Shown here in pieces: positions 10,864 to 64,000 of a stretch of 64,000 nucleotides of DNA (positions are counted from its first letter, which is position 1; the number at the start of each line of letters is the position of its first letter). The stretch spans positions 120,903 to 184,902 of the forward strand of contig JBAMJV010003989.1 of assembly GCA_037951105.1 (NCBI GenBank), read 5' to 3'. Made by a program: the position numbers and the translations under genes. A model generated the notes under the pieces. That model was not told the origin of the DNA. It did no database searches and saw only the letters and a program-made list of their open reading frames with translations. This DNA is from Echinarachnius parma. Taxonomy: Eukaryota; Echinodermata; Echinoidea; Clypeasteroida; Echinarachniidae.

Positions 10864-10953
10864 GGACCCGAGACCAATGAAAAGTGGACCGTTTACATAA
10901 AATTCATTTGGGGGGTGCGTATGCACCCAACGCACCCCCTGGCTACGGGCCTG
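10797..10953. mobile_element. Poly-G-containing repeat with GTGCGTA and GGCTACGGGCCTG end
   Basis: It contains a run of more than 30 G's at 10831, GGGTGCGTATGCACCCAACG, and ends CCCTGGCTACGGGCCTG. The complementary end CAGGCCCGTAGCCAGG is seen at 40747-40762, with the same core at 40820. It is a TIR-type repeat family. Confidence 0.6.
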
Positions 10954-13190: not shown

Positions 13191-13582
13191 AAAGATTTAA
13201 AGTTGAATTTAAAATTCCAGCTAGACTTAACCCATTCAAAATGAACTGTTCTTGTTATATTACATGTCTTCTACACTGACCTCTGCCCGAGTATACTGGA
13301 GATCAGTCCTGAACGGGTTACAATTATGGTTGGTAGGCCGTATGTAGCCTTGGAATAAAATCAATTCAAAAGCAACGGTTCAAATATTTGATACTTGTGA
13401 GAAATTTGATATCAAGGCAGCATATATGACCTTTCCCTGATAACGGAAAATAGCTGTTTTTGAAAATGTATGTCTTGTTTTGAAACCTTTTTAGCAATTT
13501 TACAAAACAACTAAACGCTTTCCATGATTTCAAGTCCAAAGTTATTTAAAGTTCAACTTCAACATCTTTGTGAAACACCACC
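13191..13582. mobile_element. MITE family GTTTCACAAAG, copy 2, with nested short palindrome
   Basis: Ends GTGTTTCACAAAGAT and ATCTTTGTGAAACAC. A ~93-bp segment with ends TAACCCATTC / GAACGGGTTA at 13229-13321 is inserted in the left arm. Confidence 0.75.
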
Positions 13583-13584
13583 CT

Positions 13585-13727
13585 GGGCCCCCATTACATA
13601 GAACTGTTCTGATTGTTGTAAATGTTCAATTATTGTAACTACCATGGCAACCGCTACAATGCTTCATGCTGATAGGCTCTTGCCAAAGTAGTTTCAACAA
13701 TTGGACAAGTTTTATGAAACAGGGCCC
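13585..13727. mobile_element. Small TIR element near eIF2-alpha 3' end
   Basis: Ends GGGCCCCCATTACATAGAAC and GTTTTATGAAACAGGGCCC. Interior AT-rich, no ORF. Confidence 0.6.
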
Positions 13728-13808
13728 AGGGTCCTGATTGGCAGGGATTATTGTCCTACAATCTCAGCACATTTACTCTATTCTTTGTGATTTGTAACTA
13801 CGGAGACG

Positions 13809-29100: not shown

Positions 29101-29786
29101 TACATTTGTATGGGAACCGGGTGGGTTGTATATGGGGATATCAGAAACTCAAATGGAACAGGTTAATTATAATAGAAGCTGGGTGTTAAATGTCCATACA
29201 AGTCATTCCGAACTTAATAGATTGTGTGTGTGAGGGAACAAATCAAGAGATCTGATTCTATGGATATATTGGCACTATTTTGACTAGAGTCAACCATGGT
29301 AATCGAGAGGTTTATACTTGAATTTCATCCTTGAAACCACCCTTGCTCACAATGAAATCAGTTAAATAAGAGTCAAAATCAGTAAAACAAAATAAAACAA
29401 TTTATGTGAACTAATTTTTCAACATCTTTTCTATTCACAGGGGAAATCATATTAGATTACACCTTTTACACAACCATATTATTATTATGATTATTTGGGG
29501 GGGGTCAAAATTTATTTGATGTTCAAGTTTTCTATCTTGTGTTTTCAGATGTACCCGATGGCCGTGGTAGGCACGGCAGACAAGAACGTCATCATCTACC
29601 AACTCGAGAACCAACCTTCAGAGTTCAGGAGAATGGACTCACCTCTGAAATACCAGGTAATGGTGGTGGTGATGGTGATGATAATGATGGTGATGGTGAT
29701 GGTGATGATAATGATGGTGATGGTGATGATAATGATGGTGATGGTGATGGTGATGGTGATGGTGATGGTGATGGTGATGTTGATGT

Positions 29787-29871
<85 letters not shown>

Positions 29872-43604: not shown

Positions 43605-44553
43605 TATAGAGTGTAGTGACATTATTTTGATTGGACAATAAGTATGCTGTAACTTTCACTCACTCACACTTTCTTTGTTAAATAACACAGTAGATCTGTT
43701 CAGGCTGAACTAGATCGATTTATTCAACTTATCTGTCGCGGCGCAGATCAATCTGAATTGCAGCATCCCATAATTATGTGTGACTGTCTCCAGAATTATG
43801 GTTGTACGATCTTTATGAGAACATGGTCGAAACGAAGTCCCGCCATTCGTTGCTTTGTAAAATAATGGAGAAGAGTATTTCTGTAATTATGTAATCTTTA
43901 CTTTGACAACGCTCCAATTACTAATTATCTGACAGAGGGGTGAGTATCGTTGTGACTTGTCACTTCGCCGGATAAGAACGTCCACAATTGCTGTTGTGAC
44001 TCATCGGCGCTTAATACTGAGGTGGAGAGGATTCCTACTCAAAGACTGGATATAAATTTATTTGCGATTTGCCCAACTTTATGGGAACCGCTGCATGTGC
44101 ATTGGATACTTTTGATGCTATTCACCCAAAACCCGACAGAGCAGCGTCTTTTGTTTACAACCTGGTCATCAATAAGTGTAATTTTAAGAACATTGGACTA
44201 CAGTACCTATATACAGTATATGGCGAGGGAAAGAATTAGGTGAAACTACTTTTGTGTGCGTGAAAACAAGATATTCGAGCAAATTCTTAAAATGACAATG
44301 TAAATGTGACAGTATCTCCTAAGAACCAAGCGACTAATTTCTATGTAACCTGGTAATTATAGGAGCATTTAAGCATTTCATGGAATACATTATCGCATGA
44401 AAGAAGTTTATATATAAATTGACCTTCTTGTGAAACTTGATATATAAGCCAATCTGGAATTAATGTCTATAATATATCTATGAAAACATTTGTCGATTCC
44501 CCAAATTTCGGTCAGAGCACCGTTTGTTTTAATGAAATGGAGCAAAGAAACTA

Positions 44554-44616
44554 GGGTTTACCCGGGATTCGAACCCGAGACCTCCGGATTGCTCTACCAA
44601 CTGAGCTAGAAAGCCC
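44554..44616 (-). pseudogene. tRNA-like pseudogene, anticodon arm lost (unit A)
   Basis: On the minus strand GGGCTTTCTAGCTCAGTTGG, GTAGAGC, then GGTCTCGGGTTCGAATCCCG and GGTAAACCC give an acceptor arm (two mismatches), a D-arm and a T-arm. About 11 nt are missing between D-arm and variable loop, so there is no anticodon arm. Comparison with the relic at 52816 suggests a tRNA-Ala-like or tRNA-derived SINE origin. Confidence 0.75.
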
Positions 44617-45070
44617 GTGCACCGGTTGTTTGTTTACAATAATTCCCTCTGAGCAGAAGCGTTTTAACTATAATACTATCTCGTGAGTAAATTATCATGT
44701 GAAACTATATCTTCTCATAAATCAAGATATTCGAGCATGTTGTTCTCATACCTTTTCAATATCGTTGGCGCCAGTTGGAATATGATAATGTCTGAGGAAA
44801 CCGAGAAAACATAGTGCTTGATATTTTTGTTTACATTTTGAATGTGAACATCGCTCTCTTTCCTTTTTAAGAATCAACAAGGGTGACTCCGATTAATAAA
44901 TCGGGAAAACGAAAGATCATAGTCGTTCAGTTTTACGTTTTGAATTCAAATGGGGTTCGCGCAATTATGTAATCATGAGAAGGAATATCGAAATGACAGT
45001 TGGATTTTTACGCCGAGTGTTCAGATATCTATGAGCGATCAAACGGTCATCATATCGTCTACCAAGTGCG

Positions 45071-46405
45071 ATGCCGACATTGAGCGGGATTAATGACAAC
45101 TTTCGCGATCAGCATCAACTCGGGAACGGGACACATTCTCCGTCTTCCGTGTCCTTGTCGACCAACGAATCGTCCAGGGTGTATACTCCATTTAATATAT
45201 ATAATGATTCACACGACTTCGACACCAAAACTAATACGATGTCCATCATCAGTACACTCGACATCAGCAACGACACTCATTCGCTGTTTCATTTTCAGAT
45301 ATCAAACAACGAATCACCATCGGTGATAAGTAATGATGATGATCCCTTTGAGAATGAATACACTCCCAATCAGCCAGTACTGCTCATCACGTTCATCTCC
45401 CTCGCGCTCCTCATCGGCATCGTCTCCAACATCGTGGCCCTGGTCGTCACGCGGCGGGCGATGCAAATCTTCCCAATTCGGCAGTCACGCAAGACGACCA
45501 TCGCCCGCTACCTCATACTCTGTCTCATGGTCGTCGACCTCAGCGCGGTGTCGTTTTTCTTCCTTCGCGGTATGTTCTACGGACTCTACTCTTCGACATC
45601 GTTTAAATGCTACTTCGACTCGATCACAAACTTGTTTTTCTCGTGGTTGAGCGGGTTCATCAACGCACTAATGTGTTTTGATCGATGCGTAGCACTCGTG
45701 GCTCCGTTCTACTACCACGGCAACGCGACAGTCGGCAAGGCGAGACTTGCTGTCGTTGCCGTCGTCATCATTGCTATCGTCATCTCCTCGCTTCCCGTCG
45801 TCGGGTTCGGCTCGTACGAGGCAACGATTAATGGAACGAGTCACTGCGTGGGCCCCGGCGACTATAAAGTCCATGGATCAAAATACGACTTCGAATTTGC
45901 CATACTCTTCATATTGACGGGAATCGCAATTGTTATATTCATTCATGCCTGCAACGTCGTCGTCATCATGAAAATCATGAAGCTCCACCGTCGAAAGAGC
46001 TCAGTAAAATTGATATCAATGAAAAGGACTACAAAAGACGAAGACGGGATCGGCGGCCGTAAACGTCGGATTTCCTCGACGAGATCGTCCGACATCATGG
46101 AAACTTCGTCAATGATACGGAACTACGACGTGATAACGACTCACGACTCGATCATCGAACGCGGTGAGATGACGGACGAAGAAACGGCATATTATTATGA
46201 CTCGACAATGAGGTCGAGCCAATCAAGCTGTACCGATGAAATTAATGATAAAGACTCGGATAAGAACAGAAATTACACAAAGCGACATCGCCATCGATTT
46301 CGTCGTCCGAGCGGTGGGAGGAAACTGGGACGAACCGAGGTGAACGTTGCAAAGCAGATTGTTGTCATCTCTGTCGTTTTTACGATATCATGGATGCCAT
46401 TTTAT
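45071..46405 (+). CDS. Class A GPCR TM1-TM6 exon, copy A (partial gene)
   Basis: A single exon of 445 codons. Residues 1 to about 100 are a Ser/Thr/Asn-rich ectodomain with five N-X-S/T sites and no evident signal peptide. Next come TM1 (LLIGIVSNIVALVV, Asn1.50), TM2 (LCLMVVDLSAV, Asp2.50), TM3 ending in DRC rather than DRY, TM4 (AIVISSLPVVGFGSY), TM5 (about 35 hydrophobic residues), a long basic and acidic loop 3, and TM6 (ISWMPFY, W6.48/P6.50). The Cys in SFKCYFD and in SHCVGPG can form the TM3-ECL2 disulfide. The exon ends at TTTTAT|GTAAGTAT, phase 0. DRC, APFYY, the LPVVGFGSY ECL2 entry and an intron at the end of TM6 recall prostanoid receptors; this is inference. Start: compared with copies B and C a 5-nt deletion puts the upstream ATG at 45031 out of frame, so the ATG at 45071 is used. 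The TM7 exon was not found. Confidence 0.85.
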
Positions 46406-46489
46406 GTAAGTATTTAATTGCCATAGACCGGCTCTTCTGATTATCTTCCATGGCAATGATCCACCATCAATGTTATGATTGTTCTCCTT

Positions 46490-46885
46490 GCTTTATTCAT
46501 CTTTCTCCTCCTCCTTCCCCTCCTCCTCCTCCACATTCTGCCCCTCCTTCTTCTCTTCTGCTCCTCACCTCCTCTTCTTCTCCCTACTCCTACTCCTCAT
46601 CATCATCCTCTTCCTCCTCCTCCTCCTCCTCCTCCTCTCCCCTCCCCCTCTTCTTCTCCTCTCCTCCTCTTCCTTTTCTTCCTCCTCCTCTTCCTTCTCC
46701 TCCTCCTCCTTCTCCTCCTCCTCCTCTTCCTCTCCCTCCCCATCAGCTCCACCTCCTCCCCCTCCTCCTCTTCTCCCCCTCTTCCTTTTCCTCCTCCGCC
46801 TTTTATCCCCTCCTTCTTCTCCTCCTTCTCTTCTTCCTCCTCCTCCATGTCCTCCTCCTCCACCCGCTTCTCATCCTCTTTATCT
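46490..46885 (+). repeat. Polypyrimidine tract after GPCR copy A donor
   Basis: About 400 bp of CTC/TCC-type sequence with almost no purines on the plus strand. It gives long Ser/Pro/Leu frames that are not genes. Confidence 0.95.
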
Positions 46886-47510
46886 CATTGTTATTACCAA
46901 TATAGAGTAATTTTTGAATTGTTCAACTGGACTGAGATAGACTAATCTAAACTGTATTGATGTGATCTTATTTGCCTGTTGAATCACCATGATCACGTTT
47001 GGACGTCACGTGACAAACATAGCCATTAACGTGGCCTAGAAAAGTTTGTTGAGACATAATTAAACATACGAATGGTGTATTTACTCTACGAGTGTACATT
47101 GTTAGGTAGAAAATGAAAGGTTCATGTTTTATACGTGTTTAAAAAGAAAACGTTATGTGAGAAATCGGGGTAGGTGTTATATCCTACATATGTCACTTCA
47201 TTATATTCCCAAACATTTTCAGGAAGATGACTGGTTATGTGTGAACAACTGACGACTCCCACAAGGGCTAACCCAGACCCCTCGGGGCGGGGAGGGGGTA
47301 AAGATCGAGTTGACTGGTTTCTCAAAAAGTAGCCTATTGCCGCCGACGAAAGTTACATAATGGAAACTCAAAAACTACGCGTATAAAGATAACCAGGGTA
47401 GTTACTTCCGGTCAGTCCGGTCAGGCTGTTTGCTTTAGACAACGACAGGTTGACACATATAACGACTGACCCTTTACTTGTGCCGCTCTAGATAGAGAGT
47501 TATTAGTAAA

Positions 47511-47765
47511 GGCCCGGTCACATATCACCGGATAGCGTAAACGTATGCCCGACGGAGAGTACAATTTTATAAAATCTGTTCGTCTCTGATCTGTTCGTAT
47601 GCGTTTATTGTCCATTCTTTTTCAGGCGATGTACGTTGTTCGTTCCGGCGTAAAAGTGTGTGCATGAAGCGATGGAGACGACTAATACGACCGGATAATT
47701 TGATTTCTCAAATTTTCTTTTCATTGGTCATCCGTTTACGCTATCCGGTGATATGTGACCAGGCC
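47511..47765. mobile_element. TIR element at the 3' edge of unit A
   Basis: Ends GGCCCGGTCACATATCACCG and CGGTGATATGTGACCAGGCC; arms continue through GATAGCGTAAACG. Confidence 0.88.
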
Positions 47766-47780
47766 TCTACTCCTTGTTCT

Positions 47781-48732
47781 ATACCTCGCACAAAAAGTTT
47801 GGCAATCGAGGTTTGCACATTAATAACTTTTTTATTACGCTATTACCATTCATAAATTTGGTATCATTGGAAAGCGTGAATCCTTCTCTTTACATTAATA
47901 TAACATTTGCTATGAATATTATGTCATGGAATGTGCATTGCATCCAAATGTAGGGCAAAGTCAAAAGTGAAATGTTGCAAAATGCACTGATTTTGTCAAC
48001 AGAGTGCCTTCCTTGGCTTGAATGGGGGTGAGGTGGTCATGCATTCAAGTCACGTTTTAATCTTCAAACAAAAGGAAGGCACACTGTTGACAAAATCAGT
48101 GCATTTTGCAACATTTCATTTTGTACTTTGCCCTACATTCGGATGTAATGCACATTCCATGATAAAATATCCATAGCAAATGTTATATCAATGTAAAGAG
48201 GAGGATTCACGCTTTCCAATGATACCAAATGTATGAATGGTAATAACGTAATAGGCATTCAAGCCACATTTTAATCTTCAAACAAAAGGAAGGCACACTG
48301 TTGACAAAATCAGTGCATTTTGCAACATTTCATTTTGTACTTTGCCCTACATTCGGATGTAATGCACATTCCATGATAAAATATCCATAGCAAATGTTAT
48401 ATCAATGTAAAGAGGAGGATTCACGCTTTCCAATGATACCAAATGTATGAATGGTAATAACGTAATAGGCATTCAAGCCACATTTTAATCTTCAAACAAA
48501 AGGAAGGCCCTTTGTTGACAGAATCAGTGCATTTTGCAACATTTCACTTTTGACTTTGTCCTACATTTGGATGCAATGCACATTCCATGATGAAATACTC
48601 ATAACAAATGTTATATCAATGTAAAATATAGAATTCACGCTTTCCAATTATACCAAATTTATCAATGGTAATAACCTAATAGAAAAGTTATTAATGCGCA
48701 AACCTCGATTACGGAACTTTTTGTGCGAAGTA
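47781..48732. mobile_element. Long-TIR element whose right arm is tandemly triplicated
   Basis: The left arm 47781 to about 48010 (GCACAAAAAGTTTGGCAATC … GTCAACAGAGTGCCTTCCTT) is matched by an inverted right arm present in three tandem copies starting near 48043, 48257 and 48471 (period about 214 bp, each with AATCTTCAAACAAAAGGAAG). Copies 1 and 2 are almost identical; the terminal copy is more diverged and carries the true end. Confidence 0.85.
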
Positions 48733-48753
48733 TATATAGACAGAAGATCGTTA

Positions 48754-48869
48754 CATTGGGTGATTTCAAGTATGGTGTTTAAGACCGGTGTTAGTGTTTA
48801 TTACACACAAACACAAGTTTGATAAACACTAACACCAGCCCTAAACACCATACTTGAAATCACCCATTG
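48754..48869. mobile_element. Palindromic MITE, copy 2
   Basis: Same arms as at 27094, with GGTGTTTAAGACCGGTGTTA inside. The loop orientation is reversed relative to copy 1. Confidence 0.88.
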
Positions 48870-50639
48870 CGTGGCAGCTATGGGCAATTGTGTTGCGCCC
48901 TTGTTGGGAGGGGGCATGGGGGCACGTGCCCTCCCCGAATAATAACATTTTTAACAAATAAAGAAAAGCGGAAATTCCTTGTCAAAATGAAATATAACGT
49001 GTGCCCTCAATAATTCGTGTTAGATAAATGCTCGGTATTAATTAAAGCGAACCAAAATGATAGTATTTCATCTATGCTACTTCGTTTGCGACACCGAGAG
49101 CATTAATTTGATATACAAATCACAAAAAATGGCCCACTGATGAGGCCACACCAATCTCGCAAAGAGACAACACAAATTATTTGTTTGCGGCGTCCCGTAC
49201 TAACATGGAAACTGCCATGTTTACATTTTTGTGCAGACCCCCAGCAAAGATGTGACGTTTTTTTGGACTTCAAAGCTAAAATTCCATTTATGATCATGTG
49301 GAAAAAAGAGACAATTTTGTCTTTGTTGAAACACAGGCCACAACAAAAAGTATATATATAAAAAGAGAAGACATTAACCAACAACCATTTGAGACGGGGA
49401 AGTGTAGAAATGTGGCTAAATGTGGTTATTTAGCCAATATACCATAGCTTTTTGACAGAATTGTCAGAGGTTGCCATGGTAACAATTGTTTTGGCGTAAG
49501 CGTGAACGTGCACACTACTGTATATGATTCGTGCCGAGCATGTTCGATTTTCTCTAACATGCGCCCCCAACACAGCTGCGAAGATGCCTAACTACGTACC
49601 AAACATTCCTTTTCTTTGATTTGGAAAGGGGTGTCATTCCTCTTTGTCGTACAAAACAAAGGCTTGTGCAGTGAATTAACTGCCTAGTCATTTACCCCAC
49701 TATTTCACCTAAACAATTGAGCTGTAGTATCGAGATGGCATTGTTTCCCTGTCTGAAGCCAATTTAGTTGCTTTTGCAGTGATTCATATCAGAATAATAA
49801 ATGCTCGTGGTCTAGATTATGCTTCGCTACGGCGGAAATAAATGCATGACTTTTTGTATCATTATTATCTATATATACCATGATATTTCTAAGAATAACT
49901 ATTGAATTAAAAGTAGCAAAAGTATTACAATTATGGAGGATTGCGAACGCGTACGCGCTCGTTGATATCATTATAGTCCAAGGTCGTATGAACACCCTCG
50001 TGCTGACTAGAAAATAAGTACTATCATGTTTAACATGTTTTCGAAGTAGAAACAAATAAAACACATACTAAATAATTTGATTCAAAATGCTAAACTAATA
50101 AGCAGTGCAATGTATTTTTGTTCGCTCTAATTTTTCATAAAAATACGTTATTAAACTAATAGTTAAAGTGGCACTTGGCTAGACCAATCAACGTCAGTCC
50201 AGAAAACGTCACGTTTCGGCGGCAAACAAAACTCATGGCGCCACTCAGAGCATCCATAAAGAGCCTGCGATAGCAAAACAGAAACTATGCCCACTCTTCA
50301 TAAAAGAATCATGGAACGGGTGATTCAGGGACATTTGGGATGTGTGAAAATAGGTCTTACTACACAGTTTGCTTTGTGTTATGCGTTTTGGTTTGCTATA
50401 TTGAGGCTGTGATTTCGTCAAGTTTGTTGTGCATCTGTAATGAGTTGTCGTTTGGCAACCCAAAATTAGACCAAACGTGTCTATACTATTCATTATTATC
50501 ATGTTTTCTATTAAATATGTGATGATAATGATATTATCAATGATGATAAAGAGCAAAATAACGATAGTTCCCTAGATGCAATACCGCATTTATTTAAGCT
50601 CGAAGAATCCTTCCAAGTCCTAACCCATAACCCTGTCTA
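48870..50639. other. Spacer between GPCR units A and B
   Basis: No gene, RNA or clear repeat was recognised; open frames are short and without family motifs. No TM7-like coding sequence (N/D-P-x-x-Y context with splice acceptor) was seen here. Confidence 0.5.
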
Positions 50640-50802
50640 GACCGTATACCGTGCTAATTATGTGCTACTCGGAGGTCATGTTTACACTGCGAAGCCTTTG
50701 AAGAAATTTCATATGGACTAACACCAAGGACCTTTCTAATACCTCCTTGGTAACACACACCTTTTTCGTAGGCCCCGGCAGTCCGACACGAGATATGTAT
50801 GC

Positions 50803-50804
50803 TC

Positions 50805-50871
<67 letters not shown>

Positions 50872-51075
50872 TTGTTGATGATGATGATGATGATGATGAC
50901 GAGGATGATGAATGATGATGATGATGATATTGTTGTTGTTGTTGTTGGTTTTTGTATGATCTTATGGCTGCTGCTGATAATCATGATGACTATATGATGA
51001 TGACGACGATGATCATAATGACGATGATGACGATGATGGCGATGATGATGATGATAAAGACGTTGATGATGCATG
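50803..51075 (+). repeat. (GAT)n microsatellite block, unit B
   Basis: Pure (GAT)n followed by GTTGTTGTTGTTGGTTTTTG and more GAT/GAC. Homologous in layout to 41594-41945. Confidence 0.9.
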
Positions 51076-51380
51076 ATATGATGCGCAACCAAAGAGCAAG
51101 TGGAACCCTGCATGTACCGCACTCATCTTTGATAATAAGACATTTTCTTACCATGCCTACAGCTAGAAGCCGTCAACAGTGGAACAACCTATAGGAGACT
51201 GATTTTCGGTCTATGTATCATTAGAGCGCGTTGATGTCCCTCACATTTTTATACTATGTATATTGATGAGTTAATTGCGTGCAATGAATTATACATGTAT
51301 TACCATCGATAGTCTACGTACACCCCAATGCAAGCCTATATACTATCTAAAATGCCCCATTGGTGCAGCTCAATGTATAG

Positions 51381-51755
51381 TTAAAGGAGCACCTGTAAAG
51401 TGTCAGATATTGCCCAAAATGACATTTGAGACTTCAATCCTATACCAAAATCATTGTAAGATAATATGTCCGAATGATGTGTGAAAGTTTCATTGAAAAA
51501 GAACACTGGTTAAAAAAGCGAAAATGTGCGTCAGCTTTTACAACAAATTACAGTATGACGTTTATGACCGTTTATAAACGCTCTTGAGCTGAGTTATTAT
51601 CAATGATAGATATCGTCATACTAAAGGGGCATTTGACAAAATCTAACCCTATTTTATTCTTCTCTTATCATAAGCCAAACAACACGGTGGAAGAGAAATG
51701 TGGAAGCTCAATTTCATTTTTGTGGAGAATTAGACACTTACAGGTGCACCTTTAA
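51381..51755. mobile_element. TTAA-ended TIR element in unit B
   Basis: Ends TTAAAGGAGCACCTGTAAAG and CTTACAGGTGCACCTTTAA. Confidence 0.8.
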
Positions 51756-52815
51756 GTCTCCAAGACAATGACCCAGTAGGTACGACTCCAATTAGACAGT
51801 GTAGTTCGAGGATCTTATAAACCCTCATTCTTCTCCATCCTTCTTGTTAATCTTTTGAGTTTTCTGGAGATGAGATTATTGATTATGGCTTAGATACGGT
51901 TATTAAACTTCAACTTATTGTCTACTGTGATACGATTGACCCATGCAGGCCCTTATAGTGGCGGGTGCATGTTGCCACTGTATGCGAGTGGAGCTGATTG
52001 TGAATTATGCTAAGCTCTCCTTTGTTAAGTCCACTTATTGCATTTCTTATGCAGGTTCATGTAACAGTATACTATACACTATACGAAGGTGTACATAACA
52101 TTTATATATAGAGTAAAGTGACATATATCCAGCCATTCTTTGCTTTATGGAGAGGAGTATCTTTGTTCTTCACTTGTACAACTCTAACTGCTAATTATTA
52201 TCGGACAGAGTAATTTCGGATAAGTACGTCCACAGATGCTGTTTAGATTCATAGGCGCTTAATGCTGATCGAAGTGGAGAGTATTCATACTCAAAGACTG
52301 GATATAAATTTATTTGCGATTTGCCCAACTGTACGCCACTGCTGTGTGTTGGATAGTTTTGTATGATATTTCTTTAATACCCGACAGGCCAGCGTCGTTT
52401 GTTTACAACCTGGTCGCCAATGGTGATTTTAATAACATTGGACGAGGGAAAGTAAAAAGTGAAACTATTTTTGTGTGCGTGAAAACAAGGTTTTCAAACA
52501 AATTCTAAAATGTGACAACATGTGACAACTTCTATACAACCCTGGAAGTGAGGAACATTCAATTGAATACAATATCGCGTGAATGAAAACTCTTCTCGAT
52601 TCCAAAAGTTTAGGTCACCGGGTTTGTTTCAATGATTGAGCAAATGAGTCTCTTCTCGTTTGACATCTCTTTGCCTACAATATATTTTGATAATCATTAA
52701 TGTTCGTCATCGTATATGCATCATTGCTGTATCTGTTCTACACCGTCCAATTTGGGCTTGCCTTATACAGTTCGCTGCCGATCTCTGCATTTCGGAGGAA
52801 TACATATTAGAAGAA

Positions 52816-52867
52816 GGGGAACCCGATACCTCCGTATTGCTAGACTTGTGCTCTACCAACTGAGGTC
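52816..52867 (-). pseudogene. tRNA-like relic at the equivalent place in unit B
   Basis: Minus strand CTCAGTTGGTAGAGC … CTAGCAA … GGAGGTATCGGGTTC. The anticodon loop region is present (CTAGCAA, anticodon AGC if aligned) but the stem is mutated and the T-arm is lost after GGGTTC. It ends just before the GPCR start codon. Confidence 0.6.
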
Positions 52868-52870
52868 TTC

Positions 52871-54250
52871 ATGTCGTCTTCGAATTGGAGTGCGATGCCG
52901 ACATCGAGCGGGAATATTGACAACTCTTACGATCAATATCAACTCGGGAACGGGACATATTCTACGTCTTCCGTGTCCTTGTCGACCAACGAATCATCCA
53001 TGATGTACACTCAATTTAATATATCTAATGATTCACACGACTCCGACAGCAACACTAATACGATGTCCATCATCAGTACACTCGAGATCAGCAACAGCAC
53101 TCATTCGCCGTTCCATTTTAACGTCACTCATTCACCGTTTTATGATCACAATATATCAACCGACGAATCATCGGTGTTAAGTAATGATTACGATCCTTTT
53201 AAGGATGAATTCACTTCATACAAGCAGCCAGTATTGTTCATCACGTCCATCTCCCTCGTGCTCCTCATCGGCATCGTCTCCAACATCGTGGCCCTGGTCG
53301 TCACGCGGCGGGCGATGCAAATCTTCCCAACTCGACGCAAGACGACCACCGCCCGCTACCTCATCTTCTGCCTCATGGTCGTCGACCTCAGCGCGGTGTC
53401 GTTTTTCTTCCTTCGCGGTATGTTCTACGGACTCGACTCTTCGACATCGTTTACATGCTATTTCGACTCGATCACAAAATTGTTTTTCTCGTGGTTGAGC
53501 GGGTTCATCAACGCACTCATGTGTTTTGATCGATGCGTAGCTCTCGTGGCTCCGTTCTACTACCACAGCAACGCGACAGTCGGCAAGGCGAGACTTGCTG
53601 TCGTTGCCGTGGTCATCATTGCTATCGTCATCTCCTCGCTTCCCGTCGTCGGGTTCGGCTCGTACGAGGCAACGATTAATGGAACGTTTCATTGCGTGGG
53701 TCCTGGGGACCATCACGTCCATGGATCAAAATACGACTTCGAATTTGCCATACTCTTCATATTGACGGGAATCGCAATCGTTATATTCATTCACGCCTGC
53801 AACGTCGTCGTCATCATGAAAATCATGGAGCTTCGCCGTCGAAGCTCAGTGAATTTGACACCAATAACGATGACTACAAAGGATGACGACGATAAATGCG
53901 GACATAAGCGTCCAATTTCCCCGGCGAGATCGTCCGACATCGGGGAAACTCCGTCAATGAAACGGAACTACGACATGGTAACGACTCGTGGCTCGATCGT
54001 CGAACATAGTGAGATTACGAACGATGATACAATATATTATATTGACTCGATAACGAGGTCGAGCCAATCGATCTGTACGGATGAAATTAATGATACAGAC
54101 TCGGATAAGAACAGAAATTACACAAGGCGACATCGTCATCGATTTCGTCGTCCGAACGGTGGGAAGAGACTAGACCAAACCGAGCTGAACGTTGCAAAAC
54201 AGATTATTGTCATCTCTGTCGTTTTTACGATATCATGGGTGCCATTTTAT
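52871..54250 (+). CDS. Class A GPCR TM1-TM6 exon, copy B (partial gene)
   Basis: A 460-codon exon, clearly a paralogue of the copy at 45 kb; TM1-TM5 are nearly identical in codons as well as residues. It starts MSSSNWSAMPTSSGNIDNSY. The ectodomain carries about eight N-glycosylation sites and a short internal repeat (THSPFHF...THSPFYD) that copy A lacks. The TM3 end is FDRC, TM6 is ISWVPFY, and the donor GTAAGTATAC lies at the same codon as in the other copies. The reading frame happens to stay open past the donor to 54613, giving a hydrophobic stretch and then a low-complexity Ser/Pro/Leu tail. I treat that as intron, because the equivalent frames stop soon after the donor in A and C. Likely role: plasma-membrane receptor, ligand unknown, prostanoid-like at best. 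Confidence 0.85.
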
Positions 54251-54344
54251 GTAAGTATACTGTATATGATTGCCATAGACCTGCTCTCTAGTACTGCAAT
54301 AATCCTCGTCAATGTTATATTTTCTTATTCCTACTTTCTCAATC

Positions 54345-54600
54345 TTCATCTCCGTCTCCTCCTCAACTCATCCAGCTCTCCTTCCCCCCTCCTATTGCTT
54401 TCCCCATCTTCAGATTTCCACATCCCCCCCCCCTCTTCATCCTCCTCCTCCCCTTCCCCTCTTCCTCTTCTCAACCTCTTCCTCCCCCTCCTCCTCCTCT
54501 TCTTCTCCCCTTTCCATTCGTCCTCCTCCCACGACCCCCTCCTTTTTCTTCTCCTTCTCTTCCTCCCATTTCCTCCTCCACCCGCTACTTATCCTCTTAA
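54345..54600 (+). repeat. Polypyrimidine tract after GPCR copy B donor
   Basis: Same position as in copies A and C relative to the donor (about 100 bp after it). It creates the open-frame tail after the copy B exon. Confidence 0.93.
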
Positions 54601-54985
54601 TCTTTTTTGTTAGTAGCCTACCAATATAGTGTAATGTATATACATGTATGTCTGTCATATTAAAGTTGTCACAATGTTCAACTGGACTGAGATAGACTAA
54701 TCTAAACTGTAATATTGATGTGATCTCATTAATTTGCCTGTTGAGTTACCACGATCACGTTTGGAAGTCACGTGACAAACAGCCTAGAAAAGTTTGCTAA
54801 CATACTTGTACTGTAGAATAACCCGGTGTAATTAGTACAGCTTCACATTTCAAATGTGGGCTATGACTGCTACCCTGTGCTGTTATTGTTATTTTCAACA
54901 ATGTTATTACAACGATGTGTTATGGCTGCTACCCTGTGTTGTTATTGTTATTTTCATTTAAGTCATTTATTGTTATTATCAGTTG

Positions 54986-56168
54986 TATTGATGTTGTACA
55001 TTGATGCCGTCTTGTGTCTGACGTTGGTCTCGGTCTGGAAGATCTTCGCCACTCCTTCATGACCGCGATTCTGCCCTCGCTGTCTCATTCCAGTCCCAGG
55101 AGTCCACAACGAATTACGACTCATCCTATGTCCTCCTAAAATGAGGTCAAGCATTTGTTGAAGTAGTGTATATTGTACAACCTTGTGAATTTACATGTTT
55201 AGGGGAAATGCACGAGAACGGGTCCGGGGTTGCACGCCTTTTTTATCCGTTATATTTCTTCTTTTTTTTAAAAAAATCACTTTTTTTCCTTTCCATAATT
55301 GCCCATTCGATGGAGTCCACTTGCATGCCCTCCATAGCGCCCCGACCCTCAATAATATGACAAAATCCTAAACACATAAGAGGTAAATGTGTGAAAAATA
55401 AAGAAATACATAAACATAGGTGTGCCCCCCCCCCCCCCCCACCCCGGTCTGACCAGACGGCGCTACATAATCATTAAGTATTACACGATGACGAAAACAT
55501 AACGCCATATTTCCCGCACATGAAAAAGAGCATGACGTATTTGGAATTCGCTCCCTATTTGCCGCGTCATGCATAAACTTCTGTATGTAATAAACATGTG
55601 TGGAAATGGGACAACAAATTTTCGTGAGTGACCGCGATTCATAAAAAAAAAGATTATTGCGTTATGCAGAGTACGCTACATAATCTAAATTTGGATGCAT
55701 TCGAGAAGGCTATAATAATGTCCACACCGGCACACACATAAATCAATACACTGCACAGTAATTTTGAGCAATAACGGCATTATAGAAATCATAAAAATGC
55801 AAGTGCGTATAGATTTGGTCTCTAATTGTAAGAGTACGACCCCTTTTCGACAGGGTGATTGCTTCAGCTGGATTAAGATTGTAATTATGAAGTTAATCAG
55901 TTTTATTGGGCCATGGATACCATTAGTCTGAAAAGATCAGACAATGTTTCGAGGGTTCTTTGACGATTTTTTTTGTATCACCTGCTATCTCGGGGATTGC
56001 ATGACGTCATAATATTAAAGGACCCCTCCAGAACGAGATGGATTTTTCTGTCTAGGATACCATACATGTATAACTGATACGCCTAGTTTCAAATGCTGCG
56101 CCATAACTCCAATATAGTATTATTACTTCAATATAAATGATGGAATCCTGTTTTCAAGGTAAGCCCTC
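54986..56168. other. Spacer between GPCR units B and C
   Basis: AT-rich sequence with a poly-C run at 55426. No gene and no TM7-like exon recognised. Confidence 0.5.
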
Positions 56169-56382
56169 TGCAGACAGAGCCGACTCGACCCGATTCGACT
56201 GTTTTTCAATCGGATCGGCTCAGTTTTCAGTGCCTCGCGACACACATTGTGCCAGTCGAGAGACAATCGGATGCCAGTTGGGACCAATTCAACACGATGA
56301 ATCGGCTCCGACCGACCGGGACCAACAGTACTCTAGCCTGATTGAAACCAGTCGGATCGGGTCGAGTCGGCTCTGTCTGCAG
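56169..56382. mobile_element. TIR element, ~214 bp
   Basis: Arms CTGCAGACAGAGCCGACTCG and CGAGTCGGCTCTGTCTGCAG, continuing ACCCGAT; GC-richer than its surroundings. Confidence 0.85.
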
Positions 56383-56423
56383 AAGATGCACCATGCTTCG
56401 TCCTTGTCCTTCGATGTGCTATA

Positions 56424-56952
56424 CAGGGTGGCCCAAAAATAACGGAACGGGGCACTTCCCAAAATAAAGTAACGAAATGACTGGGTCCATCGGATAGTGT
56501 GTCTTTTCAAATGAAAATTGATACCAAGAACATTAATTTTGGTCGTGTAGTTTTTGTTTTAGACCGCTGTGAGTGACACCATGTCAGGGTTCATTTTTCT
56601 TCAATTTTGACTGACCTATTGGCTAAAGAATGACCCGAACGGCTCGTCATAGAATTACGATGCACAATGATGCGGACACCTTTGTTAGTGTGCATTCGAC
56701 TGAATAGCCACAGCGCCGTAATTCTATGCCGAGCCGTTCGGGTCATTCTTTAGCCAATAGGTCAGTCAAAATTGAAGAAAAATTAACCCTGACATAGTGT
56801 CACTCACAGCGCTCTAAAACAAAAACTACACGACCAAAATTAATGTTCTTGGTATCAATTTTCATTTGAAAAGACAAACTATCCGATGGACCCAGTCATT
56901 TCGTTGCTTTATTTTGGGAAGTGCCCCGTTCCGTTATTTCTGGGCCACCCTG
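56424..56952. mobile_element. Tc1/mariner-like long-TIR MITE at the start of unit C
   Basis: Ends CAGGGTGGCCCAAAAATAAC and GTTATTTCTGGGCCACCCTG, flanked by TA on each side. Nearly the whole 529 bp folds back (arms about 240 bp). The interruption is visible because unit A has CTATACAATATC at the same place. No transposase. Confidence 0.88.
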
Positions 56953-57996
56953 TATTACGTAATATATAGGATGTTACTTGGCGGTCATTTTTGCACTGTT
57001 AAAGGGAATAATATTCTTTTAAATAAAAGGTAAACATTTTAGTAGTCCATTCCATCAACAAGTTCAGGAAAATAGGATTCCAGACAAATTATATAATTGG
57101 AAAACGCATCACCATATACTTTAGGTACGTCTCCAAGACAGGTACGACTCCATGCAATTAGACAGTGTAGTTGGAGGATCTTACCCTCGTTCCCGCCCTC
57201 GTTCTCCTCCACACTTTTTGTTCTATTATTTTGAGTTTTCTGGAGATGAGATTATCGATTATGGCTTAGATACGGTCATTGAACTTCAACTTCTTGTCTA
57301 CTATGATACTACAGCCCCCTATTGTAGTGATGGGTGGTGCCATATGCGAGCGTATGCGAGTGGTTCTGATTGTGCTGTAGTGCTAAGCTCTCCTTTGTTA
57401 AGTCAAGGAGGTACTAGTACCTCCTTGGTTAAGTCCACTTATTCCGTTCTTATTCAGGTTCATGCAATGTTTGAGCGAACTTGCAGTATACTATACACTA
57501 TACGAAGGTGTACATAACATTTATATTTATCACCTGACTTAGTAAATACAGTACATGCCGCTGCCGTGTTATATTTTTGGATAGTACATGGCAATATAAC
57601 ATGGCAATTATTTACGATACAAAATGTACACATACCGTATTAAACGTGTACATAAACGGCGTATCGTACCGTGTTATTGGTACATGCATGTGACACGTAT
57701 AAAATCATTTATCTCGCGGGCAGCGAACGAAAGAAGAAACAAAAAAGAAAATCAGCGATTTTCAGTACAATTGGATCAGAAAGTGACCTGGTAAATATAA
57801 TCGAAGGAAACAATCGACAAATAGTTCTGATAGAAATGCAGTGATCTGAATATGTTGAGATATTAGTGCTAAGAAAGGCAATCTAAGTACGCCGATCGAC
57901 TGTATTGTGCGTGTTATGTGAATGTGATGTGAAGCGGGTGTTTGTGTGAGCGAGTGAAACGGATTATGATTTCAATTTGACAATCAGATGATAAAA

Positions 57997-58160
57997 CAGT
58001 TGTTAACTTTGTTGTCGGGAAAATCACGGAATATTCCTACCCTCGGGATTTCAAATTCTATTTCGTGAAGAAAAACTTATTTACTCTTCCCTCAATAGCA
58101 TTTAAAATCCCTCGGGATGTAATATTCCGTGCTATTCCCTCCACCGCCAGTTAACAACAG
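57997..58160. mobile_element. Small inverted-repeat element
   Basis: Ends ACAGTTGTTAACTTTG and CCAGTTAACAACAGT, with internal GGAATATT / AATATTCC and CCCTCGGGAT pairs. Confidence 0.6.
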
Positions 58161-58315
58161 TATAATATAAGATGATGACGTCATAATGAAGGTAAATTGA
58201 GCATTCCTATTGGTTGATTACCGATGCTTAATCCAGTATATAAGATGATGACGTCATAATGAAGGGAAATTGAGTATTCCTATTGGTTGATTACCGGTGC
58301 GTAATCCGGTATAGT
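58160..58315 (+). repeat. Tandem ~75-bp duplication
   Basis: TATAAGATGATGACGTCATA followed by TTCCTATTGGTTGATTACCG occurs twice in direct order. The ATGACGTCAT core is a CRE/ATF-type site and ATTGG is a CCAAT box in reverse; function unknown. Confidence 0.75.
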
Positions 58316-58574
58316 GAACGTTGCTACCTGGTAACGTGCACTATAACATCAATTTATGCACGCTATGTGTGTACACATTTCCCATAGAGAGCCAAACAAG
58401 CCGCGTGGGGGATGGCATTGGAGTGCGTAATGTGTACTAATGCGCTTGTTCTTGAATGGGAAAAATGCGCAAAGCGCGAAGTTATTTTCAACACGCGCTG
58501 GCGCTTGTACACATTACGCAGGGCCTACGAAGGCTGGAGGGAACACTCACAATTTGAGCAAGGTCAATTTGGAT

Positions 58575-59065
58575 TTATCAAATAATGATAACAAAATCAG
58601 TTCCTCAAAATAATCATCTTGTATAACAAATAGTACATGCTTCTTGTCGTTAAATATTTCATAATACACACCTCTACATTTTGAATTTCACTCGTGCAAA
58701 TATATTGCACTCGGCCTGCGGCCTCGATGCAATATAGACACTCGAGAAATTCAAAATGTATCGGTGTCTATTCTGGTATATTCAACTCCAAACCCTGCAC
58801 TTGTATAATAGTGCACGTTAAATTACTACCTGGTAACGTGCACTATAACATAGTTAAAAACCAGTTCCTCCAAATAATCATCTATAACAAATAGTACATG
58901 ATTCCTGTCGTTAATATTCCATAATAGGCACCTCTACATCTTTAATTTCTCTCGTGCGATTATATTGCATTCGGCTATACGGCCTCGATGCAATATAATC
59001 GCTCTCGAGAAATTAAAAATGTATCGGTGTCTATTCTGGTATATTCAACTCCAAACCATGCACTA
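58575..59065 (+). repeat. Direct duplication of ~215 bp (two copies)
   Basis: Copies at about 58585-58800 and 58858-59062 share AGTTCCTC, AACAAATAGTACATG, CTCGATGCAATATA, GTATCGGTGTCTATTCTGGT and ATTCAACTCCAAACC. Each contains its own hairpin (GATTATATTGCAT / ATGCAATATAATC in copy 2). Confidence 0.75.
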
Positions 59066-60462
59066 TTTCATATAATTTGTATAATAGAGTACATTGTATA
59101 GTGACATATATCCCGCCATGTTTTGCTTTATAGAATATAAATGGAGAGGAGTATCTTTGTTCTTCACGTGTACAACTCTAATGGTGAGTGGAACAACCTC
59201 CCAGTCCACAAGATGTTATTGCAGCACCATCAGTAAACGTTGTAAAAGGAAATTAGACCAATTTTGGTGGGAAGAAAGATTCAACCTGCACTGAAGTCCG
59301 TCTCACGCGTATACGCCCAAATATAGTTATTATATTATAGTACAGTATAAAACCATCCGCACCAACCCAACCTATATGTAACGACCGGAAGATCTACAGG
59401 ACACAACATATCCTTCCGTATACAGATGTTGATGAATGCTGAAGTGGAGAGGATTCATATACTCACAGACTGGATATAAATTTATTTGCAATTTGCCCAA
59501 CTTTATGGGGACTGCTGCATGTTGGATAGTTTGTATAATATTTCCTGAATACCCGACAGGCCAGCGTCGTTTGTTTACAACCTGGTCATCAATGGTGATG
59601 TTAATAACATTGGACTATATTGAGAGCCGTAAAATGTGAAACTATTTTTGTGTGCGTGAAAACAAGGTTTTCGATCAATTTCTAAAATATGACAACACAA
59701 ATGGAACATCATCTGTATTCGTCTAACTTCTATACACATCCTAGACCTAGGAAGATAGGAACATTCAATGGAATACAATATCGCTTGAAAGAAAGTATTT
59801 AAAGCTACTTTTTATATGTTCGAACCAATCCTGAATTAATGTTAATAATTATGGAAGTGAAAACTCTTCTCGATTCCCAAAGTTTAAGTCAGACCACCGT
59901 TTGTTTTATAATGACGGAGCAAATTAGTCTCTTTTCATTCTCTTTGACTACAATATATTTTGAAAATCATTAATGTTCGTCATCGTTATGCATAATTGCT
60001 GTAACTGTGCTATACACCATCCAATTTGGGCTTGCCTTGCAGTTCGCTGCCGATCTCCGCAAAGTATAGACTTTATATTTGTTTTTACAATAATTCTAAC
60101 CAGAAGCATTATTTTTACTACTATCTCGTGATATCATGTGAAACTACATGACTGTACTTTCTCATAAAAGCAAGACATTCGAGCATATACAGTTCTCTTT
60201 CCCTTTCAATTACACTGGCGCCAGTTGAAATACATGTATGATCATTTATGGGACGACCGAGAAAACATAGTGCTTGATATTTTTAAATTTTCAATATTCA
60301 ACAAGGGTGACTCCGATTAATTACAAATTCGGGAAAACGAAAGATAGTCGTTCGGTTTCACGTTCTGAATTCAAATGATGTAATCATGGAAATGAATATC
60401 GAAATGACAGCTGAAATTTTACGCCGAGTGTTCAGATAAATTTGAGCGATCAAACGGTCATC

Positions 60463-61842
60463 ATGTCGTCTTCGAATTGGAGTGCAATGTCGACATCGAG
60501 CGGGAATATTGACAACTCTTACGATCAACATCAACTCGGGAACGGGACATATTCTCCGTTTTCCATATCATTGTCAACTAACGAAACATCCAGGATGTAC
60601 ACTCCATTATCTAATGATTCACACGACTCCGACACCAACACTAATACGATGTCCATCATCAGTACACTCGACATCAGCAACAGAACTCACTCGCCGTTCC
60701 ATGTTAACGTCACTCATTCACCGTTTCATTTTCATATATCAACCGACGAATCATCGGTGTTACGTAATGATGACGATCCTTTTAAGAATGAATACACTTA
60801 CAAGCGGCCAGTAATGTTCATCGCGTCCATCTCCCTCGCGCTCCTCATCGGCATCGTCTCCAACATCGTGGCACTGGTCGTCACGCGGCGGGCAATGCAA
60901 ATCTTCCCAACTCAACAGTCACGCAAGACGACCATCGCCCGCTACCTCATTTTCTGCCTCATGGTCGTCGACCTCAGCGCGGTGTCGTTTTTCTTCCTTC
61001 ACGGTATGTTCTACGATTTCTACTCTTCGACATCGTTTAAATGCTATTTTGACTCGATCACAAGATTGTTTTTCTCCTGGTTGAGCGGATTCATCAACGC
61101 ACTCATGTGTTTCGATCGATGCGTAGCACTCGTGGCCCCGTTCTACTACCGCGTCAAAGCGACAGTCGGCAAGGCAAGACTCGCTGTCGTCGCCGTCGTC
61201 ATCGTTGCTATCGTCATCTCCTCGCTTCCCGTCGTCGGGTTCGGCTCGTACGAAGCAACGATTAATGAGACGAGTCATTGCGTGGGTCCTGGGGACTATA
61301 AAGTCCATGGATCAAAATACGACTTCGAATTTGCCATACTCTTCATATTGACGGGAATCACAATTGTTATATTCATTCACGCCTGCAACGTCGTCGTCAT
61401 CATGAAAATCATGGAGCTTCGCCGTCGAAGCTCAGTGAAATTGACATCAATAACGAGGACTACAAGGGATGACGACGAGAAATGCGGACATACATGTAAG
61501 CGTCCAATTTCCTCGGCGAGATCGTCCGACATCAGGGAAACTTCGTCAATGAAACAGAACTACGACATGGTAACGACTCGTGGCTTGATCGTTAAACAAA
61601 GTGACATTACGAACGATGAAGCGATATATTATATTGACTCGACAACGAAGTCGAGCCAATCGATCTGTACTGATGAAATTAATGATACAGACTCGGATAA
61701 GAACAGAAATTACACAAAGCGACATCGTCATCGATTTCGTCGTCCGAGCGGTAGGAAGAGATTAGACCGAACCGAGCTGAACGTTGCAAAACAGATTATT
61801 GTCATCTCTGTCGTTTTTACGATATCATGGATGCCATTTTAT
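60463..61842 (+). CDS. Class A GPCR TM1-TM6 exon, copy C (partial gene)
   Basis: A 460-codon exon, closest to copy B. The start is the ATG at 60463 (MSSSNWSAMSTSSGNIDNSY), matching B. The in-frame triplet 21 nt upstream is TTG where copy A has ATG, so it is not used here. TM1-TM6, FDRC, the TM3 and ECL2 cysteines and ISWMPFY are intact, and no internal stop is present. Loop 3 has a three-residue insertion (HTC) relative to B. The donor is TTTTAT|GTAAGTATAT, phase 0. Downstream in the remaining 2.2 kb I see a polypyrimidine tract and repeats but no TM7 coding sequence. The locus is the third unit of a tandem segmental duplication. Confidence 0.85.
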
Positions 61843-61944
61843 GTAAGTATATATGACAGGCCTGATATATGATTGCCATAGACCGGCTCTCTAGTATTGC
61901 GATAATCCTCGTCAATGTTATATTTTCTTATTCCTACTTTCTCA

Positions 61945-62222
61945 ATCTTCATCTTCGTCTCCTTCTCCTCGTCCTTCTCCTCCTCCTCTCCTCATCCAGC
62001 TCCCCTTCCCCCTCCTCCTCTTGCTTTCCTCATCTTCATATTTCCACCTCCTCTTCTCCCCCCCCCCCCCCTTCCCCTCTTCCTCCTCCTCCTCCTCCTC
62101 GTCTCCTCCTCTTCCTCCCCCTTCTACTCCTCTTTTTCTCCCCTTTCTTTTCCTCCTCCTCCCATCACCCCCTCCTTTTTCTTTTCCTTCTCTTCTTCCC
62201 CTTTCCTCTTCCACCTGCTACT
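61945..62222 (+). repeat. Polypyrimidine tract after GPCR copy C donor
   Basis: CTCCTC-type run following the intron segment CAATGTTATATTTTCTTATT that copy C shares with B. Confidence 0.93.
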
Positions 62223-62970
62223 CTTTTGTATTACCAATATAGTGTATTTAATTATGTCTCTGTCATAATGAAGTTGTCACAATGTTCAACTGGACTGAGA
62301 TAGACTAATCTAAACTGTAATATTGATGTGATCTCATTAATTTGACTGTTGAGTTAATACCACGATCACGTTTGGAAGTCACGTGACAAACATAGCCTAG
62401 AAAAGTTTGCTAACATACTTATACTGTACATTATGAATAACCCGGTGTAATTAGTACAGCTTCACATTTCAACAGTGGGCTATGACTGCTACCCTGTGTT
62501 GGTAGCCCCCTTAAGGAATAACTAGAACATTCTAGAATTCCGAACTGAAATTAACCAGGAACCCCAGGGTTCCACTCGATGTACATGTACGATAGGAAGG
62601 GAATGGTGTATAAAAGTGTTTTAAAGAAAATGTTATGTAGAACTGACAACTTCCACAAGGGCTAACCCAGACCCCTCGGTGTCGGGGAAGGGGTAAAGAG
62701 TTGACCGGTTTCTCAACTTGAAAGTATGCATGGCGAGTTGGCGACGTAAGAAAGTTACATAATGGAATCTAATAAACATGATAATACATTGTAATATACG
62801 CGTATACAGATAACCAAGGTAGTTACTTCCGGTCAGTCCGGTCAGGCCGTTTGCTTCAGACAACGACAGGCTGACACAGATAATAACTGACCCTTTCCTT
62901 GTGCCGCTCTATACACAAAGAGTTATATTGTAATGCTAAATATGGTACTCATTGCGGAAATAGTACCGTT

Positions 62971-63037
62971 AATAATATCGCTAATGATATTCGTTTGTCT
63001 CGCAATGTCAACAAGGAAGCAAAAATCATTAGCGATA
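62971..63037. repeat. 67-bp target-site duplication, left copy (small hairpin MITE target)
   Basis: Identical, base for base, to 63702-63768. It is most of a ~75-bp palindromic element with arms GTTAATAATATCGCTAATGAT / ATCATTAGCGATATTATTAAC. The left copy lacks the last bases of the palindrome and the right copy lacks the first, as expected if the LINE landed in one MITE. Confidence 0.85.
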
Positions 63038-63701
63038 AGTCATTCTAGACCTTTATTTTTATCTTTGAATATTTTACCTATTTGTCTTTTACATGAATTC
63101 CAGCTTGGTGTATTTATGTACTCTTATTATCATAATTTATTACCTATGACTTTTAATAATATGTTTCAGTGCAATAGTGATGTGCATCAGTATAATACGA
63201 GATTTGCCTCTGACACTCGATTAATATATGGCCGTAAATCTTTTTCAAATTCTATATTTTTATATAAAGGACCATTATTGTGGAACAAACTTGCCAATGA
63301 CATTAAACAGTGTGCAACATTAAGCACTTTTAAAAGAAAATTGAAAATGTATTTAATGCAACAAATTTAAATGCAACAGCCCTCCCTTCCGTTATCCTTT
63401 GTAGGTATCCTCTTACCCTTTTTCTATTTCAATGCTCTAGGGTCATCTATTCATAAGTTCTCTGCAACTTTCCTGATGATCCTTCCACTTCATAATTCTT
63501 TACTTTCCTCTCTCTTCTCTTCTTCTTGTTTTTTTTTTTTTTTGTTTTTTTTTTTTCTTCCATTGTTTGTTTGTTCTCAAACTTACTTTGTACTTATTAT
63601 TGTAATGATCTATGTAAATTGTACTTGTGTTTATATTGTATTTGCATGTTTTTTATGAAAGTGGTTAATAAAATTCAATTCAATTCAATTCAATTCAATT
63701 C
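63038..63701 (+). mobile_element. 5'-truncated LINE (non-LTR retrotransposon), 3' end
   Basis: The frame ending at 63370 gives the C-terminal RT-domain tail typical of CR1/Rex1/L2-like LINEs: HQYNTRFASD, YGRKSFSNSIFLYKGPLLWN and KLANDIKQCATLSTFKRKLK, then a stop. A ~330-nt 3'UTR follows, ending in (CAATT)n before the target-site duplication. The element is heavily 5'-truncated. The clade assignment is tentative. Confidence 0.85.
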
Positions 63702-63768
63702 AATAATATCGCTAATGATATTCGTTTGTCTCGCAATGTCAACAAGGAAGCAAAAATCATTAGCGATA
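63702..63768. repeat. 67-bp target-site duplication, right copy
   Basis: Identical to 62971-63037 and directly follows the (CAATT)n tail of the LINE. It then continues into TTATTAAC, completing the hairpin element. Confidence 0.85.
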
Positions 63769-64000
63769 TTATTAACGAGTTATATATAATTACTCCTTGC
63801 TCTATATGAAGAGCTTAATTCCAAAAGGCGCTAAATCCACTTTTACAAGTTTCGAGAAAAAAGGGTTTTTTTGCCCAACTTTGTATGCATGCCTTTGGGA
63901 ATATGAAAGCGGAATTTCTTTTATTTCGATTTTGAATAGGTAATTTGTCCTAAAATTTTCATTTTGTAGATACAATGTAGTTATGTAGCTTATTAATATA

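Follow-up and report, generated by a model that had tools for sequence, protein, structure and literature searches.

Tandem class A GPCR exons in Echinarachnius parma that probably share one downstream TM7/C-tail exon

Results

The window analyzed here is a 64-kb stretch of the Echinarachnius parma assembly (1.2 Gb, 14,790 contigs), namely positions 120903-184902 of contig C3987. In the mitochondrial contig that carries COX1, TGA is used within the reading frame, AAA stands at an expected Asn and AGA at an expected Ser, and the frames after COX1 were read as ND4L and COX2, in agreement with the genetic code and gene order of echinoderms. The window carries three tandem long exons, A, B, and C, each of which encodes an N-terminus and the transmembrane helices 1 to 6 (TM1-TM6) of a class A (rhodopsin-like) G protein-coupled receptor (GPCR; PF00001). 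We consider it probable, with odds of roughly three in four, that they are part of one complex GPCR locus, in which tandem alternative first exons (N-terminus plus TM1-TM6) share one downstream exon for TM7 and the C-terminal tail (C-tail). This model is well supported at the DNA level; the splice joins, promoters, expression, and ligand are what we infer.

As claimed in the initial annotation, the three exons are intact and end in phase 0 at one common donor, TTTTAT/GTAAGTAT (the slash marks the splice site), which was confirmed by the open reading frames (ORFs) and by the matches to the 14-mer TTTTATGTAAGTAT. This 14-mer occurs three times in the 64 kb, every time at an exon end, compared with 0.10 occurrences expected (at most one mismatch). 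In a Pfam search at E 0.001, all three exons matched 7tm_1 (cut-off 30.5 bits; scores in Table 1), and the only other match was a sub-cut-off Srsx for C. The 7tm_1 match of A, B, and C halts at profile position 219 of 260, i.e., at the end of TM6, and TM7 is absent. The N-termini carry many glycosylation sequons, and the third intracellular loop (ICL3) is large. The start of exon A is equivalent to Met9 of B and C. In place of the upstream ATG, A has ATA, and 5 bp are missing immediately 5' of its start.

No plausible [ND]PxxY/F TM7 was seen on the plus strand of the window, and the TM7 exon found on another contig, C9533, gave only chance-level tblastn matches to the window (best E 0.50). Contig C3987 stops at window position 64000, which accounts for the lack of TM7 in the window. 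The absence of TM7 after A, B, and C, noted in the initial annotation, holds for the window as such, with the limit that the 2.2 kb after C is all the contig sequence left.

When the assembly was searched with the protein of exon B, 12 matches were obtained, of which nine belong to the family (80-100% identical and free of internal stops) and the other three are distant GPCRs (21-32%). Of the nine TM1-TM6 exons, three lie in the window, C9533 carries four (minus strand), and C14099 carries two; they represent four types, alleles included: A (2), B (2), C (3), and D (2). An open frame and the phase-0 GTAAGTAT donor were present in 9 of 9 copies. Positions on C9533 are given for its reverse complement, assembled from five stretches (50,000 bases). 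Since the order of the inter-exon stretches of C9533 is kept in the window, to which they align at 93-98.6%, this contig was taken as the other haplotype.

On C9533 the TM7/C-tail exon lies 29.4, 23.0, 15.1, and 5.7 kb downstream of the donors of A, B, C, and D, respectively. Its acceptor is in phase 0, as are the donors; the first in-frame acceptor reads TCTTCTCCGACTTCAG/ATTCAGCGT, and two further AGs occur within 18 bases in the same frame. After joining to A, C, or D, the protein reads ...VVFTISWMPFY/IQRLLKTLYIEQPDWYLPAVIFLLVSNHVIDPFVFVFMKQQSRTVLKDLCCRGACCCRNG... to a stop. The encoded C-tail is rich in cysteine (IQRLLKTLYIEQPDWYLPAVIFLLVSNHVIDPFVFVFMKQQSRTVLKDLCCRGACCCRNGCRITAEKETSISMATCGER), and the TM7 motif is DPFVF, a variant of NPxxY; the prostanoid receptor EP1 has DPWVY at the aligned place. 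Exon B joined to the TM7 exon matched 7tm_1 over positions 9-259 of 260 with 76.7 bits, compared with 9-219 and 62.9 bits for exon B alone. On joining, the number of distinct PDB sequences matched at E 0.001 rose from 21 to 95, and the score rose from 28.6 to 48.5 bits for EP2 and from 57.6 to 63.1 bits for EP1, with EP3 nearly unchanged (41.7 and 40.4 bits). A decoy control was also performed, in which the TM5-TM6 fragment of B, with ICL3 omitted, was joined to candidate acceptor ORFs. The fragment alone scored 17.7 bits and the fragment with the TM7 exon 29.6 bits, slightly below the family cut-off of 30.5. Six other acceptor ORFs, consisting of the four most hydrophobic and two others out of 42 distinct ORFs (the TM7 exon counted), gave 8.8-18.8 bits.

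The window sequence past C matches the C9533 stretch that lies 3' of exon D and leads to the TM7 exon. Window positions 62501-62613 match C9533 44607-44719 (98%), positions 62641-63037 match C9533 45112-45481 (91%; also C14099, 97%), and positions 63702-64000 match C9533 45415-45713 (99%; also C14099, 99%). Given this colinearity, C appears to be the last array copy on the window haplotype, which would carry three copies compared with four on C9533. Homology places the expected TM7 exon about 3.9 kb beyond the window end (49657 minus 45713). On C14099, a D-type and then a C-type copy are followed by the same post-array sequence, and the contig ends at C9533 position 48738, just before the CT-rich tract that precedes the TM7 exon on C9533. 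As assembled, copy number and order differ between the contigs. Upstream of its two copies (1-14900), C14099 has only short repeat-like blocks in common with the window and C9533; it may represent a third arrangement or a chimera.

The duplicated units (Table 1) extend from the 5' flank into the intron. The blastn homology between the window units ceases 0.5-1.1 kb into the intron, so TM7 was not included in the copied unit. Over 600 bp of 5' flank, A and C agree at 77% of aligned columns, B and C at 76% of 273 columns, and A and B at 45%. Between A and B, at window positions 48041-48682, there are three head-to-tail copies of a 214-base unit, and related sequence is found inverted on C14099.

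Table 1. Positions of the array features (window positions unless C9533 is named; C9533 positions refer to its reverse complement)
Feature	Position	Strand	Description	Basis
Candidate variable first exon A	45071-46405	+	N-terminus and TM1-TM6, 445 codons, phase-0 end at TTTTAT/GTAAGTAT	ORF; 7tm_1 60.8 bits
Candidate variable first exon B	52871-54250	+	460 codons, donor as in A; best PDB relative EP1	ORF; 7tm_1 62.9 bits
Candidate variable first exon C	60463-61842	+	460 codons, donor as in A	ORF; 7tm_1 60.9 bits
Donor A	46400-46413	+	TTTTAT/GTAAGTAT	motif match
Donor B	54245-54258	+	TTTTAT/GTAAGTAT	motif match
Donor C	61837-61850	+	TTTTAT/GTAAGTAT	motif match
Duplicated unit around A	44013-47503	+	exon with about 1.1 kb each of 5' flank and intron	pairwise blastn
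Duplicated unit around B	52217-54885	+	proximal 5' flank shorter than in A and C by about 0.4 kb	pairwise blastn
Duplicated unit around C	59435-62926	+		pairwise blastn
Post-array sequence	62501-64000	+	matches the C9533 stretch leading to the TM7 exon	
Exon A on C9533	C9533 18912-20246			
Exon B on C9533	C9533 25264-26643			
Exon C on C9533	C9533 33188-34567			
Exon D on C9533	C9533 42574-43947			
Candidate shared TM7/C-tail exon	C9533 49657-49896 (contig 105-344)	minus	single downstream exon, phase-0 acceptor	

Selection on the copies

The exon indels among A, B, and C, counted from the start codon of A, were multiples of 3 in 15 of 15 pairwise events (some events are common to pairs). In the first 600 bases of the intron, 9 of 26 indels were multiples of 3. 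The ratio of nonsynonymous to synonymous divergence (dN/dS) was 0.25-0.45 in TM1-TM5 and 0.57-1.5 in ICL3. The amino-acid changes in TM1-TM5 were fewer than in neutral simulation (A-B, P 0.0015; A-C, P 0.0005; B-C, P 0.013). On neutral paths, 3.4 stops were expected for A-B and 3.6 for A-C, and the probability of a path without a stop was 0.03 for A-B, 0.02 for A-C, 0.09 for B-C, and 0.53 for C-D. Constraint in TM1-TM5 was seen for the older splits and was absent for the youngest pair. The simpler explanation offered in the initial annotation, that the exons are three broken tandem copies, is disfavored by the nine open frames, the in-frame indels, and the TM1-TM5 constraint, least strongly where the copies are youngest.

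Between the C and D types, 15 alignment columns differ; a rough topology assigns 10 of them to the N-terminus or to places close to where helices and loops end on the outer side. A tendency of these differences towards the outer face is only suggestive, the topology being taken from a poor model.

The synonymous divergence (dS) is a mosaic in window positions 45487-46257 and the homologous parts of B and C. A and B are close in TM1-TM5 (dS 0.10, compared with 0.31 in ICL3), and B and C are close in ICL3 (dS 0.05, compared with 0.12 in TM1-TM5). This pattern suggests gene conversion among the copies.

Alternative explanations

Several observations weigh against a working array with one shared TM7 exon. 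Over the whole exon, dN/dS was 0.49-0.71, indicating a weaker constraint, and in the ectodomain it was 0.76-1.4. The whole-exon neutral simulation gave P 0.051 for A-B, 0.003 for A-C, 0.34 for B-C, and 0.81 for C-D. C-D, the youngest pair, has 18 amino-acid changes from 23 nucleotide differences and no constraint in TM1-TM5 (P 0.47). When alleles were compared, the 5' flanks were about as conserved as the exons, and the comparison is not informative; allele-versus-flank conservation was discarded as evidence, the low P in 3 of 5 comparisons coming from the CT-rich intron tract. The TM7 exon alone has no Pfam match. It is known from one contig alone, where it lies 104 bases from the contig end and is preceded by a CT-rich tract of about 0.9 kb (48739-49640, 87% C+T), which could conceal a misjoin. 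A TM6-TM7 profile based on seven other, distinct GPCRs encoded in the genome failed to detect the TM7 exon; we judged the family too distant for such a profile. Finally, a search with 700 bases of DNA around the TM7 exon found C9533 itself and no second contig, so the second TM7 allele is missing from the assembly. A single match is hence no proof of a single exon, and the count covers assembled sequence.

The most serious competitor is that function is confined to the copy next to TM7, namely C in the window and D on C9533, and that the others are incomplete duplicates which have not yet decayed. The lack of TM7 in the duplicated unit favors this explanation. The seemingly unconstrained C-D differences, the nonsignificant whole-exon test for B-C, the ectodomain and ICL3 dN/dS values that reach or exceed 1 in some pairs, and the loss in A of the upstream ATG of B and C are also in line with it. 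Nevertheless, incomplete duplicates would hardly be expected to keep an open frame and the same donor in 9 of 9 exons, to have all exon indels in frame, and to follow stop-free paths as improbable under neutrality as those of A-B and A-C. The TM1-TM5 constraint, moreover, is seen against A, the copy furthest from TM7, where it is not separable between the A branch and the B-C-D stem. Furthermore, the proximal copy is of D type on C9533 and of C type on C14099 and in the window, showing that the C type is intact in both positions. We regard this explanation as unlikely.

Each long exon may instead have a private TM7 exon that was missed as divergent, split, or unassembled. The TM7 of this receptor family is indeed divergent, as the failure of the profile from other GPCRs illustrates, and all three contigs break in the array region. 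However, all occurrences of the TM7 motif on the coding strand between the C9533 copies lay in low-complexity, CT-rich frames, except for one in a frame that lacks a hydrophobic helix (24027; window 51645). Searching with the found exon by tblastn gave nothing above chance elsewhere on the three contigs, and a single match, the exon itself, in the 1.2-Gb assembly. In C9533 20247-50000, we also enumerated the phase-0 acceptor ORFs of at least 40 amino acids and applied filters on pyrimidine tract and complexity; among the 54 retained, a hydrophobic helix with a TM7 motif was present solely in those of the found exon. A private TM7 exon between the copies was thus rejected by motif, by similarity, and by enumeration. 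The end of homology between units inside the intron also speaks against it, and we hold private TM7 exons to be very improbable. The shared TM7/C-tail exon that the initial annotation had placed beyond the 64 kb is, by comparison, supported by the order A-B-C-D followed by one TM7 exon on C9533, by the sole assembly match, and by the colinear sequence after C.

That the exons serve by intron read-through as six-helix truncated receptors, acting as modulators and not as signaling receptors, deserves hardly any credence: read-through past the donors does extend A and C by short tails and B by a long one of low complexity, but these tails are unalike, the GTAAGTAT donor is kept in 9 of 9 copies, and a fitting phase-0 TM7 exon exists.

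Under the preferred arrangement of alternative first exons with one TM7 exon, a transcript would begin at one of the long exons, each with its own start codon and a 5' flank that presumably holds a promoter; for B, which lacks part of the proximal flank, such a start is less certain. The phase-0 donor of the chosen exon would then be spliced to the single TM7 acceptor. Transcription from A would run on through B, C, and D, which would be removed as part of the intron, presumably because a 3' splice site is not required in a first exon. The predicted products are 7TM receptors that vary in the ectodomain, in outer-face parts, and in ICL3, and have TM7 and the tail in common.

Receptor class and relatives

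In searches against PDB sequences only, EP1 ranked first of 21 for exon B (E 1.2e-14) and first of 95 for B joined to the TM7 exon (E 2.1e-16). An intron at the end of TM6 is typical of prostanoid receptor genes. In TM7 of prostanoid receptors, R7.40 binds the ligand carboxylate; the Arg of the EP1 RLASWNQILDPWVY stretch aligns to Phe in the TM7 exon. The alignment also places DRC after TM3, where ERC is described as usual for prostanoid receptors (PMC2700072). Prostanoid receptors are the nearest solved relatives; nevertheless, the locus was not filed as one, because the TM7 Arg is Phe. Membership of the insect gustatory receptors was likewise rejected: Pfam gives 7tm_1, and the likeness lies in gene architecture only.

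The AlphaFold2 prediction for exon B with eight copies had a mean predicted local distance difference test (pLDDT) score of 34; its six helices and one pair of strands followed each other as expected, but the model was too poor for a fold search. Distant relatives are L022 (C3402:41670-42083) and L021 (C14286:44880-45296). The frame of L022 covers only the N-terminus and about TM1-TM4, and its intron position therefore seems different. In a sea cucumber GPCR survey, the accessible sections tabulate a small prostaglandin cluster, describe most OR-like genes as single-exon, and do not mention shared exons (PMC7042368).

Neighboring sequence

Upstream of the array and on the same strand, window positions 29456-29935 contain an exon resembling what we take to be RAE1/mRNA export factor. 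A long near-perfect tandem repeat at 27376-29233, open in several frames on both strands, is a minisatellite. Downstream, window positions 63038-63701 were read as the 3' fragment of a long interspersed nuclear element (LINE), with a reverse-transcriptase tail, an ATTCA repeat at the end, and a flanking 67-base duplication. The insertion looks polymorphic, as the alignments show an empty site on C9533 and C14099.

Discussion

GPCR repertoires usually grow by whole-gene copying. In the locus proposed here, the copied unit is the ligand-binding part alone, and the copies depend on one TM7 exon. If this is true, receptor choice would be set by promoter choice and splicing, and one desensitization and trafficking tail would be common to all receptors of the locus. 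The receptor repertoire would then vary between haplotypes, depending on whether they carry three, four, or perhaps more copies, and gene finders could score such arrays as rows of pseudogenes.

By sequence, the nearest receptors of solved structure are the prostanoid receptors (EP1, EP2, EP3, and others), from which the locus differs in having Phe for the TM7 Arg, DRC for ERC, and tandem first exons. The logic of variable first exons is that of UGT1 and the clustered protocadherins, in which tandem variable first exons precede common downstream exon(s) (PMC1885805, PMC3325998); those genes do not encode 7TM receptors. A promoter of its own is reported there for each UGT1 first exon, and at the present locus partly conserved 5' flanks were seen. 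Among the papers listed in our literature searches, which covered open-licence PMC papers, we recognized no class A GPCR whose alternative first exons have one TM7 exon in common.

Insect gustatory receptors (Grs) are not rhodopsin-class GPCRs. Their genes nevertheless offer the closest architecture. In bark beetles, GR genes are described in which exons 1A-1D stand in tandem ahead of a single C-terminal exon 2 (PMC11302349); they likewise have tandem alternative first exons and then one C-terminal exon, in an unrelated receptor family and another phylum. In Drosophila Gr39a, four large exons encode six TM domains each, and any one of them may be joined to small common exons that supply the seventh TM domain and the C-terminus; Gr23a and Gr28b are also alternatively spliced, and exon duplication, pseudogenization, and loss between species are recorded (PMC2204066). 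The predicted design of the present locus, tandem six-TM exons with a shared seventh-TM exon, is of this kind. Gr39a has three shared exons and several reported products, whereas one such exon was found at the present locus and its splicing is predicted from DNA. It seems fairly likely to us that the design of Gr39a and the protocadherins arose independently in a class A GPCR gene, with copy-number-variable ligand-binding first exons plugged into one invariant TM7/C-tail. If so, rhodopsin-class receptors would here have converged on the insect Gr39a design.

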